From: Hydrogenovibrio marinus
GTDB taxonomy: Bacteria; Pseudomonadota; Gammaproteobacteria; Thiomicrospirales; Thiomicrospiraceae
NCBI RefSeq assembly: GCF_013340845.1
Contig: NZ_AP020335.1
Coordinates: 434,001 to 498,000 of the forward strand
Length of the DNA stretch: 64,000 bases
Direction of reading: 5' to 3'
The notes beneath the pieces are model-generated. The model searched no databases and had not been told where the DNA came from. It was given only the letters and a program-made list of their open reading frames with translations. Numbering within the stretch: position 1 is the first letter of the stretch; every line of letters begins with the position of its first letter. Below, piece after piece: positions 53,524-63,213 of this stretch. A program made the translations under genes and the position numbers.

Positions 53524-53600
53524 GCCTCCTTAGCTCAGTTGGTTAGAGCACCCGACTCATAATCGGTAGGTCCTGTGTTCAAGTCACAGAGGAGGCACCA
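53524..53600 (+). tRNA. tRNA-Ile2(CAU)
   Basis: Acceptor arms GCCTCCT and AGGAGGC pair, the discriminator is A and CCA is encoded. The anticodon arm is CCCGA-CTCATAA-TCGGT (CAU). I call isoleucine (C34 later modified to lysidine by TilS) rather than methionine because the body resembles ileX-type tRNAs. The rpoD neighbourhood is also where Escherichia coli carries ileX. The accessory island begins right after it. Confidence 0.75.
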
Positions 53601-53724
53601 TTTATTTCCTTGTAAAACAATGGATTATGTTTTTTTCAGTATTGATGTGCTTTATGAAATAATGAATTTTTAAATTTTTGTAGCATATATGTAGCGTTAT
53701 ATTTATTGATGTTTGCGTAATAAA

Positions 53725-56163
53725 TTATCCATTTCGTTTTTTCTGTACCCATTTATGATAAGGGTCACTCCCAAGATAAATAGCTAATGTAGAATCTGAC
53801 AAAGATTCAAACTCACGAGTTGAATGATATTGTGCGTGATTACTCCATGGCTCACCAAGGCTTTCCCATTTGTGCTGAAGAAACTCAGTGAATAATTCTA
53901 TGCCTGTTAACAATATTACCCAATGTTTAGGCCTGGAATCTTTAGGAGTTCCTCTAGACCATTCAACAAAGTCACGTAAGCGTGCTTTCTCGGCTTCAGA
54001 AAAACCATCTTTGAGTACACTAATCACGATTATTGAATTTGGGAGCAGGCTTGCTGTTTTTTTCATTTTATTTAGGTCGTCGTCTTTTACGATGTCTTCA
54101 CCAAAAGACTTGGCCTCTCCAATAATCAACCGTGGTTCACCATAGGTATCAAAGCGCTTTTCTTGAGGCACCCATAGTGCAAAATCAATTTCAGCTTTTT
54201 GTCCACCATTGTGTGTTAATTCCAGAGCTGTAGAAAAACTACTTGGGAAGTCATCAGTAGTCTTGAATGCAAAAAATCTAATGGTAAGTAAGGTAGTGTA
54301 GGCCCCTTGAGCATAATCTGGTAAAGAAAATGGGCCTATAACTCGGTATTTCCAATTTTGATTATTTGGTTTTAAATTACCCTGAGGAAATTTATACTCT
54401 TTCAAGCACCTTTGGCAGCGCAGGTTATAAGATAGTTCATCTAATCCATGCCAGTTTTTAGAACCGCAATGCTCACATTCGGATTCAATACCAACTTGAA
54501 TGATATTGCGATCAATATAGTGAGGAAGTTGCAGCATTTTGTGAAATCCACTTTCTTGCTTGCGCTTAGTTAACGCATGCCACTGAGAAACAGATGCTGA
54601 TTTGCCTTCAAAAATTTCTTCGATTGTGTCGCCGTTTTCAGCATTTGTTCGTTTTCTGGTACTGGTAGCGTGCTTGTTGATGAATTGAATGGTATCTTTA
54701 TCATCGATTAAAAAAAGTCCCCAAAAACCGCGAAGACTATTTAGCATTTGTTTTGCGATGCGACCAGCCTCAGACAGCTTGATTTCGATGTTTAAACGTT
54801 TAAACCAGCTTGAAAATGCATGTTCATTGCTGATAAATGAAATGTAGTCACTTTCAGACTTATAGTCTTGGAGAAAAACCCATCCTTCTCTCCCGCATGA
54901 AAAAGAACTAATTCCAGTTAATGGCCAGCTTTTGTCAAAAGTGTTGAATGGCAAGCTCAGAGCTATATCTGAATCACCACTATCATATGTTGAAGATATT
55001 TGTATGACATTTGCCCAGCGCCTTCTTGAGCTACTGTATCGCTGCGAAAAGTGGGGGGTTAATGAATTGAATACACCTGTCAGGGATTTATTTTTTAATT
55101 CTATTTTTTGATTGGAGCTTTTTGAGGTTACTCGTGCCCTTTCGGGTTGAGTAATAAAGGTGTTTTGATAATTAACATTCCAGAGTTCTGTTCGAAACAA
55201 TTTGCAAACAAAAGAGCCTTGAGGAAGATTTTGAAAAAAAGGTATTATTATCGCGTTAAATTGATCTTCAGAAATTGATCCTGCTTTTTCAATAGTTACA
55301 TGGTGCATAACTCCATTATTATTTCCTCTTAATGGCCTATGGTAGTCTTTAATAAAATTTTCAAGTGATTCAGTTAATTCAGGTAGCCACTCTATTGGAA
55401 CCGGGTAAACTGGACTAGGAAGGGTTCTTAAATTCCAGAAATCTATAATATCTCTATTGTTATGAGGATCTAATATATAAATTACTGCATCGTCATTCCA
55501 GGATCTAAATGTTTCTAAGTGTTTTTTTGTTACGGAAAATGGGGTTTCAAAATTATCAGAGTATAATTTTTTCCACAATTCAGGAGTAAATTTAACTTTT
55601 TGTGGATGGAAGACATCGAGATAGGATTGTTTGAAGTGATTGGCGTTTTCGTCCTTTGGATAACAACCTATGCAAGCTTCTGAAAATAAATTTTCATTTG
55701 AAGGGTAAATGGCTGGGAAGTCATCTCTAAGTTGAAATCTTCGTTCTGAAGCGTAGATATCTTCTAGGATGTCTGTTATTGATTGGCCTAATTGAGGTTC
55801 AAACGTGTCTCCTAATTCATTTTGAAGAAACTCGTTCAAGGAAACTACATCTCTTTCGAATCTTGGAGAGTTTCTAAATGCTTCTAGTCCAGCCTTTTCT
55901 AATAGACCTTCTTCACATTCTACGTATACATCAGGCTCAAAAAAATTGATATACCCCTGAAATATTTCTTTTTTTGATTTTCTAAAATCTGTTTTCCATT
56001 CCTTTGGAGTTCTGTTGTAAACAGGAATTATGGGGTTGTAGATTCCCCCCCAAAGGCAGGCGTTTAGCCTCATTATCTGTCTTAATGATTTTTTATCTGA
56101 AGGGTTAACCAAGAAACCAATTCTTGTAGGTCGTAATCTGATTTGAGCGTTTAATTCTGTCAT
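53725..56163 (-). CDS. large unknown protein with zinc ribbon and PD-(D/E)XK-like end
   Basis: The 812-residue protein is not one I can name. The N-terminus (PTRIGFLVNPSDKKSLRQIM, then CLWGGIYNPIIPVYN) looks like a conserved domain. Near residues 560-585 four cysteines (CEHCG and CQRC) fit a zinc ribbon. The last 170 residues have EIDFALW (Asp about 659) and LIIGEAKS (Glu and Lys about 684 and 686), spaced and shaped like a PD-(D/E)XK nuclease active site. A nuclease with possible defence or element-maintenance role is an inference. It is the last gene of the minus-strand island, next to tRNA-Ile2, and appears intact. Confidence 0.65.
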   Translation of the reverse strand: MTELNAQIRLRPTRIGFLVNPSDKKSLRQIMRLNACLWGGIYNPIIPVYNRTPKEWKTDFRKSKKEIFQGYINFFEPDVYVECEEGLLEKAGLEAFRNSPRFERDVVSLNEFLQNELGDTFEPQLGQSITDILEDIYASERRFQLRDDFPAIYPSNENLFSEACIGCYPKDENANHFKQSYLDVFHPQKVKFTPELWKKLYSDNFETPFSVTKKHLETFRSWNDDAVIYILDPHNNRDIIDFWNLRTLPSPVYPVPIEWLPELTESLENFIKDYHRPLRGNNNGVMHHVTIEKAGSISEDQFNAIIIPFFQNLPQGSFVCKLFRTELWNVNYQNTFITQPERARVTSKSSNQKIELKNKSLTGVFNSLTPHFSQRYSSSRRRWANVIQISSTYDSGDSDIALSLPFNTFDKSWPLTGISSFSCGREGWVFLQDYKSESDYISFISNEHAFSSWFKRLNIEIKLSEAGRIAKQMLNSLRGFWGLFLIDDKDTIQFINKHATSTRKRTNAENGDTIEEIFEGKSASVSQWHALTKRKQESGFHKMLQLPHYIDRNIIQVGIESECEHCGSKNWHGLDELSYNLRCQRCLKEYKFPQGNLKPNNQNWKYRVIGPFSLPDYAQGAYTTLLTIRFFAFKTTDDFPSSFSTALELTHNGGQKAEIDFALWVPQEKRFDTYGEPRLIIGEAKSFGEDIVKDDDLNKMKKTASLLPNSIIVISVLKDGFSEAEKARLRDFVEWSRGTPKDSRPKHWVILLTGIELFTEFLQHKWESLGEPWSNHAQYHSTREFESLSDSTLAIYLGSDPYHKWVQKKRNG

Positions 56164-56271: not shown

Positions 56272-56379
56272 TTAGGCTAGCGGTCCTGCCGAGGCCAAGA
56301 TGCTTGCAAACAGCGCCAATGTAACGTCTGCTATTGCAGATACAACATATTTAACGTGGTTTAATGCGTTTTTGTCCAT
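56272..56379 (-). CDS. 35-residue hydrophobic peptide
   Basis: The ATG at 56379 is preceded by a very strong ribosome binding site (AAGGGGGGTGA, 5 nt spacing), which favours this short form over an 82-codon frame starting at 56520. The peptide has a short charged head (MDKNALNHVK) and a continuous hydrophobic, alanine-rich remainder with no charge except one Asp (YVVSAIADVTLALF and onward). It could be a small membrane protein, a coat-like peptide or a toxin. None can be chosen from sequence alone. It lies between the replication gene and the 812-residue gene. Confidence 0.55.
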   Translation of the reverse strand: MDKNALNHVKYVVSAIADVTLALFASILASAGPLA

Positions 56380-56494
56380 ATTGTCACCCCCCTTATCAGG
56401 ATTTTGGCCTGATTCCAATGTTGTTAGCAATAAGTTTTTTATGTATAAAAAAATTATCAACAAAAAGATGGCAACTGAGGACAAGGCAACTATG

Positions 56495-56551
56495 GTGGGA
56501 GTTGAACCCACACCGTTCACCGCTAACCTAAATTCACTCTGTTTGGTTAGC
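56495..56551 (-). other. tRNA T-arm-like and hairpin element
   Basis: On the minus strand GCTAACC (56551-56545) pairs with GGTTAGC (56528-56522). A perfect tRNA-type T arm, GTGGG-TTCAACT-CCCAC (56511-56495), follows. No matching acceptor or anticodon arm of a whole tRNA was found, so it is either a tRNA fragment or a structured RNA. It lies between rep and the 35-residue gene. Confidence 0.4.
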
Positions 56552-56600: not shown

Positions 56601-58190
56601 TTATTGATAGAACTCCAAGTTAAAGGAATCTTTTCTTTGAAAAGCTTCCTTTTTCCATTTTAAGTTTCGAGTTATCACCTCTTCTTTTCCAACCGTGAAA
56701 CCTTTTAATTTTCTAATTGGTTCTTCATCAAAATAGCGTTGAGAAATTTCTCCTGTATCGTAATCAACTTCAAATTTATATAGTGCTCTTGCTGCTTGAT
56801 CTTTACGTTTAACGAAAACGCCTCCCATAACGTTAACGAAATCACGCCAATTAGAATTAACAGCTGAACCGGTTATGTTGTGCAACGTTACGTTAACGTT
56901 ATCATTAATGTTTAACGGTTTGTCTTTAAGTCTTCTTGCCTCTCTCCAAACAGAAACAGAGGGGCCACCTAACTGCTGAAACTGTCGAATGCCCCAACAA
57001 GCCGCCCAAGCATTAACGCGCTCAGCAGCTACAATTGGATTCTCACCATAAAAACCCTCTTCAAGGTCTGAACCATCAATATTCTTAGAAATGTACTTAG
57101 CGATGTATCCTGTAGCAGAACCTTTTGTTGGGTCAATTTTCGTTACTGTCAAGCGATGTTCTTTTGCCCCTTTTTCTTCGGGATCTTCTAAAAGGGCGTA
57201 GTGGTGAAATATTTCGACAAGTGCTTTTGATTCATTAACGTTAACGAAGATAAGTAGGTGCCAATGAGGTGTTCCATCATGATTAGGTTCAGCAACTCTG
57301 AAACCGTAAATGCGAATACCTTCTCTATCAAGTTTTGCTCTGATGCGTTGCCAAATATTATTTAGGTAATTTTGGGCTTCAAGAGGAGTGTGTCCTGCCC
57401 ATTTAGGATTAGGGTCACCGGATTTACTAAAAGCACTATGATATTTTGAAGGACATGTAAGAGTTAGAAACAAGGCTTTATGTCCTTCAACTTTTGCACA
57501 TTCTTCAAACCCCCTTGTTCTAACCATTAATTCAGCTTTTCGGATTTTGGGGTTTGAAATGCTTTTATCTGAAAGTTGTTTTAAAGAAAAGGTTTGTCCA
57601 AGCTCATTAGTTAAAAATGTAGAAGACATAGATCGTTCGTGACGCAAGTTTTGGAACCGTCTCTTCTTCACTACCCAATCACTGGAATAGATTTGCTTAG
57701 TCCGGCTAATTTGGTTTAGAAGCTGATGGATAGTTTCTACATTCCTAACTTGTGATTTTCGAAGTTTTCTCAACCACCAAATCGGATCACATAAACGTTT
57801 AATGTTAGCTTCTTTTCTTTCGTTAACATTAACGGAAACTCCATATTCTTTGGCGTAGTTAGTTAAATATTCAAAAGTTTCGTTAACGTTACGTTGAGGA
57901 TTAGCGTTAACGTAACGAGAGCAGATTTCAGCTCGATTATTAGCAAGCTCCCTTAACGAATCTTCATTGTAGTTTAGTTTTAGGTTTTTCGGCTTAACAC
58001 TTAATTTTCCGGAAATGCGTTCTTCGATTTCCAGTAAAAAAAGATTGGCATCCCTTCGAGTTGGTTTTTTCCGGTATTCACTAAATATAATTTTTTGAAT
58101 TGGTACTGGAAACTTTGATAATTTTTCTTTTACAAAGTTTCGATCATCGGAAATTACCGGTAATAAATCTATAGTGTTTCCGGAAATCAT
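56601..58190 (-). CDS. replication endonuclease, phage P2 gpA type (HUH)
   Basis: This 529-residue protein resembles the rolling-circle initiator A of P2-like phages. The HUH motif is GTPHWHLLIF (His309, His311). The two-tyrosine catalytic segment is ATGYIAKYISKNIDG (Tyr362, Tyr366), with the Y-x3-Y spacing of P2 A protein. LFLTLTCPSKYH near 252 is the upstream conserved strand. The start overlaps the preceding stop (ATGA) and has GGGGAG upstream. The gene contains repeated CGTTAACG palindromes. It would nick and prime replication of the element; no capsid or tail genes are seen. Confidence 0.85.
   Translation of the reverse strand: MISGNTIDLLPVISDDRNFVKEKLSKFPVPIQKIIFSEYRKKPTRRDANLFLLEIEERISGKLSVKPKNLKLNYNEDSLRELANNRAEICSRYVNANPQRNVNETFEYLTNYAKEYGVSVNVNERKEANIKRLCDPIWWLRKLRKSQVRNVETIHQLLNQISRTKQIYSSDWVVKKRRFQNLRHERSMSSTFLTNELGQTFSLKQLSDKSISNPKIRKAELMVRTRGFEECAKVEGHKALFLTLTCPSKYHSAFSKSGDPNPKWAGHTPLEAQNYLNNIWQRIRAKLDREGIRIYGFRVAEPNHDGTPHWHLLIFVNVNESKALVEIFHHYALLEDPEEKGAKEHRLTVTKIDPTKGSATGYIAKYISKNIDGSDLEEGFYGENPIVAAERVNAWAACWGIRQFQQLGGPSVSVWREARRLKDKPLNINDNVNVTLHNITGSAVNSNWRDFVNVMGGVFVKRKDQAARALYKFEVDYDTGEISQRYFDEEPIRKLKGFTVGKEEVITRNLKWKKEAFQRKDSFNLEFYQ
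56831..57912. repeat. CGTTAACG palindromes clustered inside the rep gene
   Basis: The exact 8-bp palindrome CGTTAACG occurs at 56831, 56891, 57239, 57881 and 57905, with a near copy (CGTTAACATTAACGG) at 57821. Five exact copies in 1.1 kb is far above chance for an octamer. Many encode V-N-V-N in the protein. P2 carries its replication origin inside gene A, so these could be origin or binding sites, which is an inference. Confidence 0.6.
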
Positions 58191-58492
58191 TTTGACTGCT
58201 CCCCGGAAACGTTACCGGAAAGTTTTCCGGAAGTTTCCGGTAAATAGTACTTTTCCCAGCGAATGCCATATGAATAGAAAGTTTTGTATTTGAGAATCCC
58301 ATCCCGGAAAAGTCGGGCGGTTAACGGCTCAATTCCGGAAACCGGGCAAGCTTCAGTTCCGGAAAATTTACCGAAAACAGGGCCCGGTTCCGAACATCTT
58401 TCGATAATGTTCCCTTTTTTAAACCAGTCCAGTAATTGTGTTTTTCTTTTTGCAAAGTTATTCATAGCAACCTCCGGAAACGTTACCGGAAA
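58006..58492. repeat. CCGGAAA repeat cluster around the rep start
   Basis: Palindromes of the TTTCCGGAAA type and half-sites CCGGAAA recur about a dozen times between 58006 and 58492. A 19-bp sequence, CCGGAAACGTTACCGGAAA, is repeated exactly at 58203-58221 and 58474-58492. The repeats lie within three overlapping reading frames (AlpA-like end, 92-residue gene, rep start). They even form the ribosome binding site of the 92-residue gene. They look like iterons or operators of the element. Confidence 0.7.
58187..58465 (-). CDS. small unknown protein upstream of rep
   Basis: The 92-residue protein starts at an ATG with GGAGG 5-6 nt upstream, overlapping the stop of the AlpA-like gene (ATGAATAA), and its own stop overlaps the rep start. 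This tight coupling supports a real gene. The protein has a basic N-terminus (MNNFAKRKTQLLDWFKKGNI). It then has an AlpA-like middle (GIEPLTARLFRDGILKYKTF) and repeated SGN/SGK segments caused by the CCGGAAA repeats in the DNA. The family is not recognised; a DNA-binding role is plausible. Confidence 0.6.
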   Translation of the reverse strand: MNNFAKRKTQLLDWFKKGNIIERCSEPGPVFGKFSGTEACPVSGIEPLTARLFRDGILKYKTFYSYGIRWEKYYLPETSGKLSGNVSGEQSK

Positions 58493-58547
58493 TATCTTTA
58501 CGAAAACTCTCTAGCCAATTATCTAAATCATCCTTTAGATGTACTGG

Positions 58548-59710: not shown

Positions 59711-60009
59711 AACCACTCCTAGATTCGACAACATCTATTGTCTCTCATTGAAGTGTCCGTTTCCATTAGACCAGTTCAAGATAACGAATGGATCTGCCAA
59801 TTTTTATAAATGGAGGAGCAGGTGTTCGGTTTATACGGTCCCCCTCCATTCTCGATTGACGGAGAAAGGATCGGCTCATACCGATGTATTGAGATGCTTC
59901 CTGTTCAGATAAAGCTCTTGAAGAAATTTTGTTGTTCATTTTTGTGTACCTCTGTATTGCTCGAAGTACACTTTAGGTTCACTTTTTCTGTTGTGAAGCT
60001 ATGTACTGG

Positions 60010-61196: not shown

Positions 61197-62330
61197 CTAT
61201 TGTCTCTCATTGAAGTGTCCGTTTCCATTAGACCAGTTCACTAGCCGTGAATCTAATAGTGAAGTTTTTTTCAATTCTAGTGATTTTCTTTTAGTTAAAC
61301 GAAATAGCATTTGAGGTTTTAATGCTGTGTCAGGCATAAAGATGATTTCTAGCAACATGATAGGAAGATGAATTAAAAGGCAAGTTAGAACTTCAAATGG
61401 CGTAATAATTAAAAGATCGAGAATCCGTCTTGGTATTGAGAAATTTGTTAGGAGTTGGCTTGTTCTAAGAAGGGAAAGGGGTTTGTATGCTTTTTGTTCA
61501 ATTTCATCTTGGGTGAGTACTAGGATAATGTTTAGAAAAAGCCCTAGTATAATTGGTGCAAAAACTATAAAAATGACTGTGAGATAGTTTTTCGCTTCGC
61601 TGAAGTTGGCTAGACTTGAAACGTATGCCGCAATAATTAGTAGTGTCATGAGCCACAGTATAACTAGGCTGTTTTGAAGCCTGGTTTCTTTATTGAAACG
61701 TAATAGTTGGTCTAAGTAATAAATAGCCATTGTTGTGACAAATAAATAGATTAGATGAATTGCAACAACTCTCCAGTCATAAAAGTTTGTGCTATTTGGG
61801 ATGTAAAAGTCTAATGAAAAAAGCAGAGTAAGTGTTGAAACAAAAAAAAGAACAGCTAACTTTTTTGTTGGTTTTTTTTTGAAGTGTAGTTGTGCTCCAA
61901 AATATGCAAATGTTATAAACCAGCTTGAAGCTAAATAGGTTAATAAATATGTTGCAAATATGTTGGATTTAAAAGAAATTATTTTTAAGCTCAGTAGGGC
62001 AATAAAGAGAAAAAAATAGTTGAGTTGTATAGATGCTGCAGTTTTGTTAAAAAGTTGTTTAACACTCTTTGAATTAATATTTGTAGGTTCCAGTACTTTG
62101 TTTCCAACTAAATAGGAAATCGCAGTAGCTGAAACACCTGATAAGGCTACTGGAAGAACTGAAGTCCAAAATGACTTTGTGTTTGACATCCATGTGAACT
62201 CGAAAATCTTCCCAATATAAATCATAACTTCGAATATAAAATAACTAACCCACAGCACAAAAAAAGGTAAGAATATAGACAGGGTTAATGGATAGATATA
62301 GCTTTGGAGATATTTTTTAAGTTGATACAT
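61197..62330 (-). CDS. polytopic membrane protein with IS-altered C-terminus
   Basis: This 377-residue protein has about eight to ten hydrophobic segments (first at 14-40, then about 60-80, 100-120, 125-145, 155-172, 190-210, 220-240, 248-275 and 315-335). I do not recognise its family. The last 14 residues (VNWSNGNGHFNERQ) are read from IS copy 2. Removing the IS and one CTA duplication restores the ending LASQQKK with a stop at 59979, so only six native residues were lost. It overlaps the 298-residue gene by 14 bp. Function may survive. Confidence 0.75.
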   Translation of the reverse strand: MYQLKKYLQSYIYPLTLSIFLPFFVLWVSYFIFEVMIYIGKIFEFTWMSNTKSFWTSVLPVALSGVSATAISYLVGNKVLEPTNINSKSVKQLFNKTAASIQLNYFFLFIALLSLKIISFKSNIFATYLLTYLASSWFITFAYFGAQLHFKKKPTKKLAVLFFVSTLTLLFSLDFYIPNSTNFYDWRVVAIHLIYLFVTTMAIYYLDQLLRFNKETRLQNSLVILWLMTLLIIAAYVSSLANFSEAKNYLTVIFIVFAPIILGLFLNIILVLTQDEIEQKAYKPLSLLRTSQLLTNFSIPRRILDLLIITPFEVLTCLLIHLPIMLLEIIFMPDTALKPQMLFRLTKRKSLELKKTSLLDSRLVNWSNGNGHFNERQ

Positions 62331-63213
62331 TTTTACGCAGCTTTGAAACTCTATTAATAAATGTTCTTCGAGACATTGATCTTTCTTTTGAAATCCCTTT
62401 CCAAGCTATTCTTTCATTGCTGATCTCTTCAATAATTCCATATTGGTCATACTGTCGATCAAATATTTCTTGCTTTGATTCTGCCTTAAGGATATTCCAG
62501 ATGTGGTCGGAGCGACTTATTCCATTGTTCATGATTTCAATGATTAGCTGATCTAATAGGCTCTGTGTTGATTGCTCTACCTGTTTTTGAATTTTTGGTG
62601 TATTCAGGACAGGGATTTCACTCTTTTTGAAGCGAAACTGATTAGGCTTTATTTTGATAGAACTACTTTCTATATTCGTGCTAAATTTTTCTAACGTTTC
62701 AGCCATTAGTTCTTTCCCGTGGCTGATTGCATCTGGTTCAGCATTAAATGCTTTAGCTGCGTTGACTATTTGTTCATAAAGTGGAGCGGTAATATCACTA
62801 ACGGACTTAGGCTCTTTGCAAGAAAGAAAAGAGAAATCTGGTACTTCTGTGTATGGTAAATGGCTTGAATATCGGTCGTTAGGGTATTTGATGCTAGGAG
62901 CTTCACTGGACCAATTATGAATTTTTTGTGGTTCAGAAATTTCCACATAGGTCAAAGACACGGTTTTATTGTCATCCAAAATTTCAATTGCAGCAGTAGA
63001 ATCAAAAGAGACAACCCCCTCGTACTGAAATGAACCTAAAGTTGAATACTTTTCGTATTGCTTAAATTTTGCTACAGCAAATAGCTTGTGTTGTGGAATC
63101 CATGCATATGCATTAATCTTTCCGGATCTTATCATTTCGATAACATCATACTTACTAATTCCTGGTAGATCCCCAGCTTCATCTAAGTGTAAAAATTCTC
63201 GTTCTAGAGTCAT
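62317..63213 (-). CDS. unknown protein, first gene of the island operon
   Basis: This 298-residue soluble protein has an N-terminus (HLDEAGDLPGISKYDVIEMI, then GKINAYAWIPQHKLF) that looks like the HTH-like adapter seen at the start of several mobile-element proteins. The C-terminal part (SRSDHIWNILKAESKQEIFD, then RERSMSRRTFINRVSKLRK-like) is basic and helical. No family is recognised. It is translationally coupled to the membrane protein (14-bp overlap) and is divergent from the Sel1 gene. A role in DNA binding is only a guess. Confidence 0.6.
   Translation of the reverse strand: MTLEREFLHLDEAGDLPGISKYDVIEMIRSGKINAYAWIPQHKLFAVAKFKQYEKYSTLGSFQYEGVVSFDSTAAIEILDDNKTVSLTYVEISEPQKIHNWSSEAPSIKYPNDRYSSHLPYTEVPDFSFLSCKEPKSVSDITAPLYEQIVNAAKAFNAEPDAISHGKELMAETLEKFSTNIESSSIKIKPNQFRFKKSEIPVLNTPKIQKQVEQSTQSLLDQLIIEIMNNGISRSDHIWNILKAESKQEIFDRQYDQYGIIEEISNERIAWKGISKERSMSRRTFINRVSKLRKNVST

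Follow-up and report, generated by a model that had tools for sequence, protein, structure and literature searches.

What does an 812-residue protein with a nuclease-like C-terminal end do on a small mobile element, and does it protect the host against phages? The question is raised by a gene in the window, a stretch of 64,000 nucleotides from Hydrogenovibrio marinus (contig NZ_AP020335.1, positions 434,001 to 498,000), which a first-pass annotation had set down as a possible anti-phage gene.

The putative nuclease gene and its family

The gene occupies positions 53725..56163 of the window and has 812 codons, as first annotated; its strand, then omitted, is the minus strand, and numerous stops interrupt the plus strand over the same interval. 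Relative to the Aidingimonas copy (62% identical), the differences at the three codon positions number 234/141/466, indicating purifying selection on the coding sequence, and the GC content of the gene is 36.8% versus 44.2% for the window. The encoded protein belongs to an unnamed family and is organized, with all parts on the minus strand, into an N-terminal module of predicted alpha/beta, Rossmann-like character (residues 1 to 312; 55228..56163), a middle region (residues 313 to 545; 54529..55227), a zinc ribbon (C563-x2-C566 ... C583-x2-C586; 54406..54477), and a PD-(D/E)XK core (residues 610 to 760; 53884..54336) with a predicted alpha-beta-beta-beta-alpha-beta order. The core contains E658-x-D660 (54184..54192) and the putative catalytic motif G682-E683-A684-K685 (54109..54120), and the N-terminal module carries the signature LRPxRxGFLVxPxD...CLWGGxYNPIIPV (residues 10 to 48; 56020..56136).

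The CxxC...CxxC ribbon and the Asp...Glu-x-Lys site, both picked out in the first-pass annotation, correspond to residues that do not vary across the family. The four cysteines, E658, D660, G682, E683, and K685 are the same in all 49 members of the alignment, and since these nine residues stay fixed while identity to the window protein falls to 17%, the motifs are not chance occurrences. W38-G39-G40, W243-N244, R607, and G610 are fixed equally; F75, D78, and G166 are further invariants of the N-terminal module, and S464 and G467 are invariant in the middle region, a possible DNA-binding part of the protein. Two more, very divergent members (17 to 18% identity) keep the entire ribbon-plus-nuclease end.

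Searches of Pfam, NCBIfam, PADLOC, PHROGs, and the PDB sequences with the single sequence and with a 44-member profile found no family or relative; the PADLOC (2023) profiles gave no match to the 812-residue protein better than an E value of about 0.03, and phage GenBank records contained no homologue of it. No earlier description of the family was found in the literature searched, which was mostly open-access, and “unnamed” here means absent from the resources searched; within these databases, the original statement that the protein could not be assigned to a known system stands. Relatives were found on a Photobacterium plasmid (31% identity) and in a Mu-like prophage, where the homologue has apparent MuA and MuB genes as neighbours. 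With these two homologues as seeds, a scan of 84,980 species yielded 57 loci, and relatives are present at more than 50 loci in about ten phyla, most of them alignable across nearly all 812 residues. Partial relatives in two genomes (G447 and G444) widen the family. The divergent member in G447 is apparently split over two contigs (L016, 13-2789, and L015, 152-964) and adjoins a DUF2130 gene; the very distant relative in G444 (L084, 1336-3421) has a WGGKY motif and, at a comparable place in the sequence, a CxxC..CxxC ribbon.

The family is rare, occurring in four to five of 398 sampled Pseudomonadota genomes (about 1%, window genome counted), and no homologue was detected in the three genomes of the same taxonomic family in the first sample. 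Phyla are interleaved in the tree, in which the window protein falls together with one protein from Halomonadaceae and two from Nitrospinota, and different genera have near-identical copies. Because of this interleaving, the near-identical copies, and the rarity, the distribution reads as that of a transferred accessory gene; paralogy or binning errors may explain single cases.

Predicted fold of the protein

AlphaFold2, run on the family alignment, returned a full-length model with a pLDDT of 87.8 and a pTM of 0.86. In this model, residues 1 to 312 form alternating strands and helices, residues 344 to 442 are strand-rich, residues 446 to 537 are mostly helical, and the zinc ribbon spans residues 555 to 592. 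The core that follows consists of a helix (615 to 634), three strands (642 to 651, 655 to 665, and 678 to 685), a second helix (694 to 706), and a further strand (711 to 716). D660 is predicted to lie on the second core strand and E683 and K685 on the third, as the PD-(D/E)XK topology requires.

A separate model of residues 545 to 812 was compared with known structures by Foldseek, and the best match was MspJI (E=9.8e-4, probability 0.99), followed by the R2 endonuclease (E=0.02), Can2, Cdn1, RecU, SPARDA, Mus81, and FokI. The leading matches are mostly PD-(D/E)XK enzymes, and EndoMS shares the fold too. The TM-scores of the C-terminal superpositions are low (0.2 to 0.3) because the core alone aligns, and the fold assignment therefore rests jointly on the motif, the topology, and the list of matches, not on one superposition. 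Both the conserved residues and the order of the predicted core elements support membership in the PD-(D/E)XK superfamily. The fold that had been suggested for the last 170 residues is thus predicted at about residues 610 to 755, by topology, invariant motif, and leading Foldseek matches.

The full-length model had no match at E<=1e-3 in the PDB and BFVD. Its nearest match was Can2 (E=0.007), with a query-normalized TM-score of 0.14 to 0.18, so that the N-terminal module is without a confident structural match in the full-length search. The whole N-terminal region, of 540 residues, comprises a predicted double alpha/beta module followed by the strand-rich and helical middle, and its family signature can be extended to LRPxRxGFLV...CLWGGxYNPIIPV...DxxDxWNLR.

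The integrative element, its cargo, and its site

The gene had been regarded as cargo of a phage-like replicon, and this can now be sharpened to an integrative element at tRNA-Met with a GPA-family Rep and exact 50-bp repeats. The integration site is tRNA-Met (53524..53600, plus strand), whose 3' half is contained in attL (53556..53605, plus strand); attL is identical to attR at 66205-66254, 2.2 kb past the window end, and the element spans 12.7 kb between these direct repeats. The nuclease gene is the element gene next to the tRNA. The backbone genes with coordinates inside the window are all on the minus strand and encode a rolling-circle replication initiator of the Phage_GPA family (56601..58190; E=8e-88), a small protein (58187..58465; 58% to the sister element described below), an AlpA-like protein, a predicted membrane protein (61197..62330; the sister has one at the same position, with no significant sequence match between the two), and a 298-residue protein (62317..63213; 33% to the sister's 306-residue protein). 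A Sel1-repeat protein gene also lies inside the element. An IS3-type insertion divides the alpA-like gene into a 3' piece (58473..58541) and a 5' piece (59775..59939), and the element contains two identical IS3-type copies, 1462 bp apart (start to start). The tyrosine integrase gene (64811-66046 in window numbering; L074, 7812-9047) is interrupted by one in-frame stop, whereas that of the sister is intact. Because of this stop and the split alpA-like gene, the H. marinus copy of the element has probably lost its mobility.

No capsid or packaging gene, methyltransferase, or nucleotide cyclase was recognized in the element, and the Rep protein found no relative in IMG/VR. Elsewhere, a distantly related GPA-type Rep occurs at one locus (L080) in what visual inspection of capsid-like and ATPase-like reading frames suggests to be a tailless (PM2-like) prophage. 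Between the nuclease and Rep genes lies an 82-residue reading frame (56272-56520) with a hydrophobic C-terminal part, which was not found in the sister element. A 17-nt match to a tmRNA 3' end at 56495-56511 is perhaps an old att remnant; a tmRNA at this position was rejected, the match being far below the Rfam cut-off.

The sister element was found in another genus of the same family (G767), at the same tRNA-Met beside rpoD, and has an exact 50-bp att repeat of its own. Its Rep (65%), integrase (about 70%), and AlpA (82%) resemble those of the window element, but the nuclease is absent, and the slot holds a 157-residue protein and a protein with an HD domain that matches a PADLOC dGTPase model weakly; the Sel1 slot is taken by an SRA-HNH endonuclease. 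The rpoD/tRNA-Met site (53524-53605) was also compared across relatives (loci L100, L101, L102, and L079). The closest congener (G759) has a type II-A retron pair at the same tRNA (NDT_II-A, E=2.7e-80, and a reverse transcriptase), another (G751) has a Type I restriction-modification (RM) system between copies of the att sequence together with HipA-like and Fic-like genes, and a third (G753) has metabolic genes. Since relatives carry a retron, Type I RM, metabolic genes, or the sister element there, the site varies in content and is rich in, but not exclusive to, defence genes.

In three Poribacteria loci, homologues of the nuclease are embedded in Type I RM operons; at L056 the operon reads HsdM-AAA-x-HsdS-HsdR, L054 and L065 are similar, and some of the Type I operons that house a homologue encode an HsdR already. 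Neighbours elsewhere include TIR-TM (E=1.3e-79), DUF4238, DUF4062, ThsB-TIR, AAA+DUF4435, SIR2, GmrSD, YhcG, and DUF4365. DUF4238 genes adjoin two homologues, and a DUF4238 protein from a P2 hotspot is a single-gene defence against T7 (PMC9122126). A tRNA lies within 0.3 kb of the homologue at L028, L045, and L070, and several homologues adjoin ordinary genes, some of them these alone. A near-versus-far PADLOC tally was rejected as a statistic for defence association: it counts models and not genes, and it is poor because one gene matches many models; distant control regions also matched defence genes (e.g., HORMA/TRIP13 and QatD). By these positions, the family is linked both to islands of defence genes and to cargo sites of mobile elements. 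The homologues are not housekeeping genes, a finding that in the first-pass annotation would have told against its reading had it been otherwise; they are rare, patchy over phyla, and near-identical across genera, and they occupy phage, plasmid, tRNA-adjacent, and defence-island positions.

Candidate functions and comparison with known systems

The conserved metal site and ribbon, the predicted fold, the horizontal spread, and a cargo slot and site that hold defence genes elsewhere together argue for defence. We consider it highly probable that the family has a defence role, as a new group of single-gene, methylase-less nucleases, and probable that the window protein is a single-protein anti-phage (anti-mobile-element) nuclease that serves as exchangeable cargo of the tRNA-Met element. 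The C-terminal domain would make metal-dependent DNA cuts, with the substrate bound by the zinc ribbon together with the middle region. No methyltransferase travels with the nuclease, and self-protection must therefore come from gating or from recognition of a foreign feature; the N-terminal alpha/beta module may keep the nuclease off until it recognizes either a signal produced by the phage or some feature of the DNA that invades. Because this module is without a confident structural match, the gating step is a conjecture. As to the target, direct cleavage of invading DNA has close to an even chance, abortive degradation of cellular DNA after activation is plausible at somewhat below even, and RNA or another target would be a minor possibility. 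We further propose, tentatively, that the N-terminal region represents a phage sensor of a kind not described before and that the family constitutes a new single-protein defence system, reaching about ten phyla and a divergent ribbon-nuclease branch.

The alternative that survives best, although it is unlikely, is a signal-activated suicide nuclease, in which the N-terminal module, on binding a small molecule or a protein of the phage, would set off indiscriminate DNA cleavage and abortive infection. Can2 and Card1 respond to cyclic oligoadenylate, and Can2 is both the top full-length match and among the top matches of the C-terminal domain; the embedding in Poribacteria Type I RM operons would also fit a PrrC-like guard role. 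The low full-length TM-score to Can2, however, does not establish a CARF domain, a search of the genome for a Cas10 signal source gave no Csm1 that passed the curated cut-off, the weak Cas10-palm matches also occur in Escherichia coli and look like GGDEF domains, and the element has no recognized nucleotide cyclase. Next, and also unlikely, comes modification-dependent (Type IV-like) restriction, with an N-terminal part that reads modified phage bases and a C-terminal domain that cuts nearby, as in MspJI. The best match of the C-terminal domain, the lack of a recognized methyltransferase in the element, and the SRA-HNH gene of Type IV-type architecture in the sister's other cargo slot are consistent with it, but the MspJI match is limited to the nuclease core, Pfam detects no SRA, EVE, or YTH domain in 44 members, and no SRA-type reader heads the full-length fold search. 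MspJI-like modification sensing and Can2-like activation serve, by analogy, as two concrete candidate models.

Nucleases carried as cargo can also act in the upkeep of their element or in competition, which counts against a defence role, and a part in processing DNA, in plasmid incompatibility, or in excluding rival elements would suit a nuclease gene near a rolling-circle Rep on a mobile element. We regard this as rather improbable, since the nuclease is missing from a sister with the same backbone and homologues reside on unrelated Mu-like phage, plasmid, and chromosomal backbones. A housekeeping DNA-repair nuclease, conceivable in view of the fold common to RecU and EndoMS, is very improbable given the occurrence in about 1% of sampled Pseudomonadota genomes and in none of three same-family genomes of the first sample, the mobile locations, and the cargo exchange.

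If active, the single-protein nuclease represents a widespread family of single-gene defence that escapes the profile libraries searched, and brings with it a large conserved putative sensor region. The difference in cargo between two genera that share the backbone and the tRNA, and the presence of a retron or of Type I RM there in congeners, constitute natural experiments, and the data suggest that small elements with a phage-type Rep and no recognizable capsid gene work as defence shuttles.

Among known systems, MspJI is the best structural match of the predicted nuclease domain and acts without a methyltransferase, as the window protein would; it has 449 residues and an N-terminal SRA-like reader, whereas the window protein has 812 residues, carries a zinc ribbon, and differs in its N-terminal region, and no sequence similarity was found between the two. 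Can2, Card1, and Cdn1, the CARF-PD-(D/E)XK ancillary proteins of type III CRISPR systems, likewise combine an alpha/beta N-terminal module with a C-terminal PD-(D/E)XK domain, and this group recurs among the matches in both fold searches; these proteins have about 400 residues, the window protein has in addition the ribbon and a large middle region, and the query TM-score is at most 0.18. The R2 retrotransposon endonuclease shares a restriction-like PD-(D/E)XK domain, but the match is weak and the window protein has no reverse transcriptase. Unlike Type I, II, and III RM systems, the window nuclease has no recognized cognate methyltransferase. Single-gene defence systems in phage and satellite hotspots, such as the DUF4238 protein of P2-like phages (PMC9122126), have no domain in common with the window protein, but they too consist of one large gene in a cargo position whose content varies.
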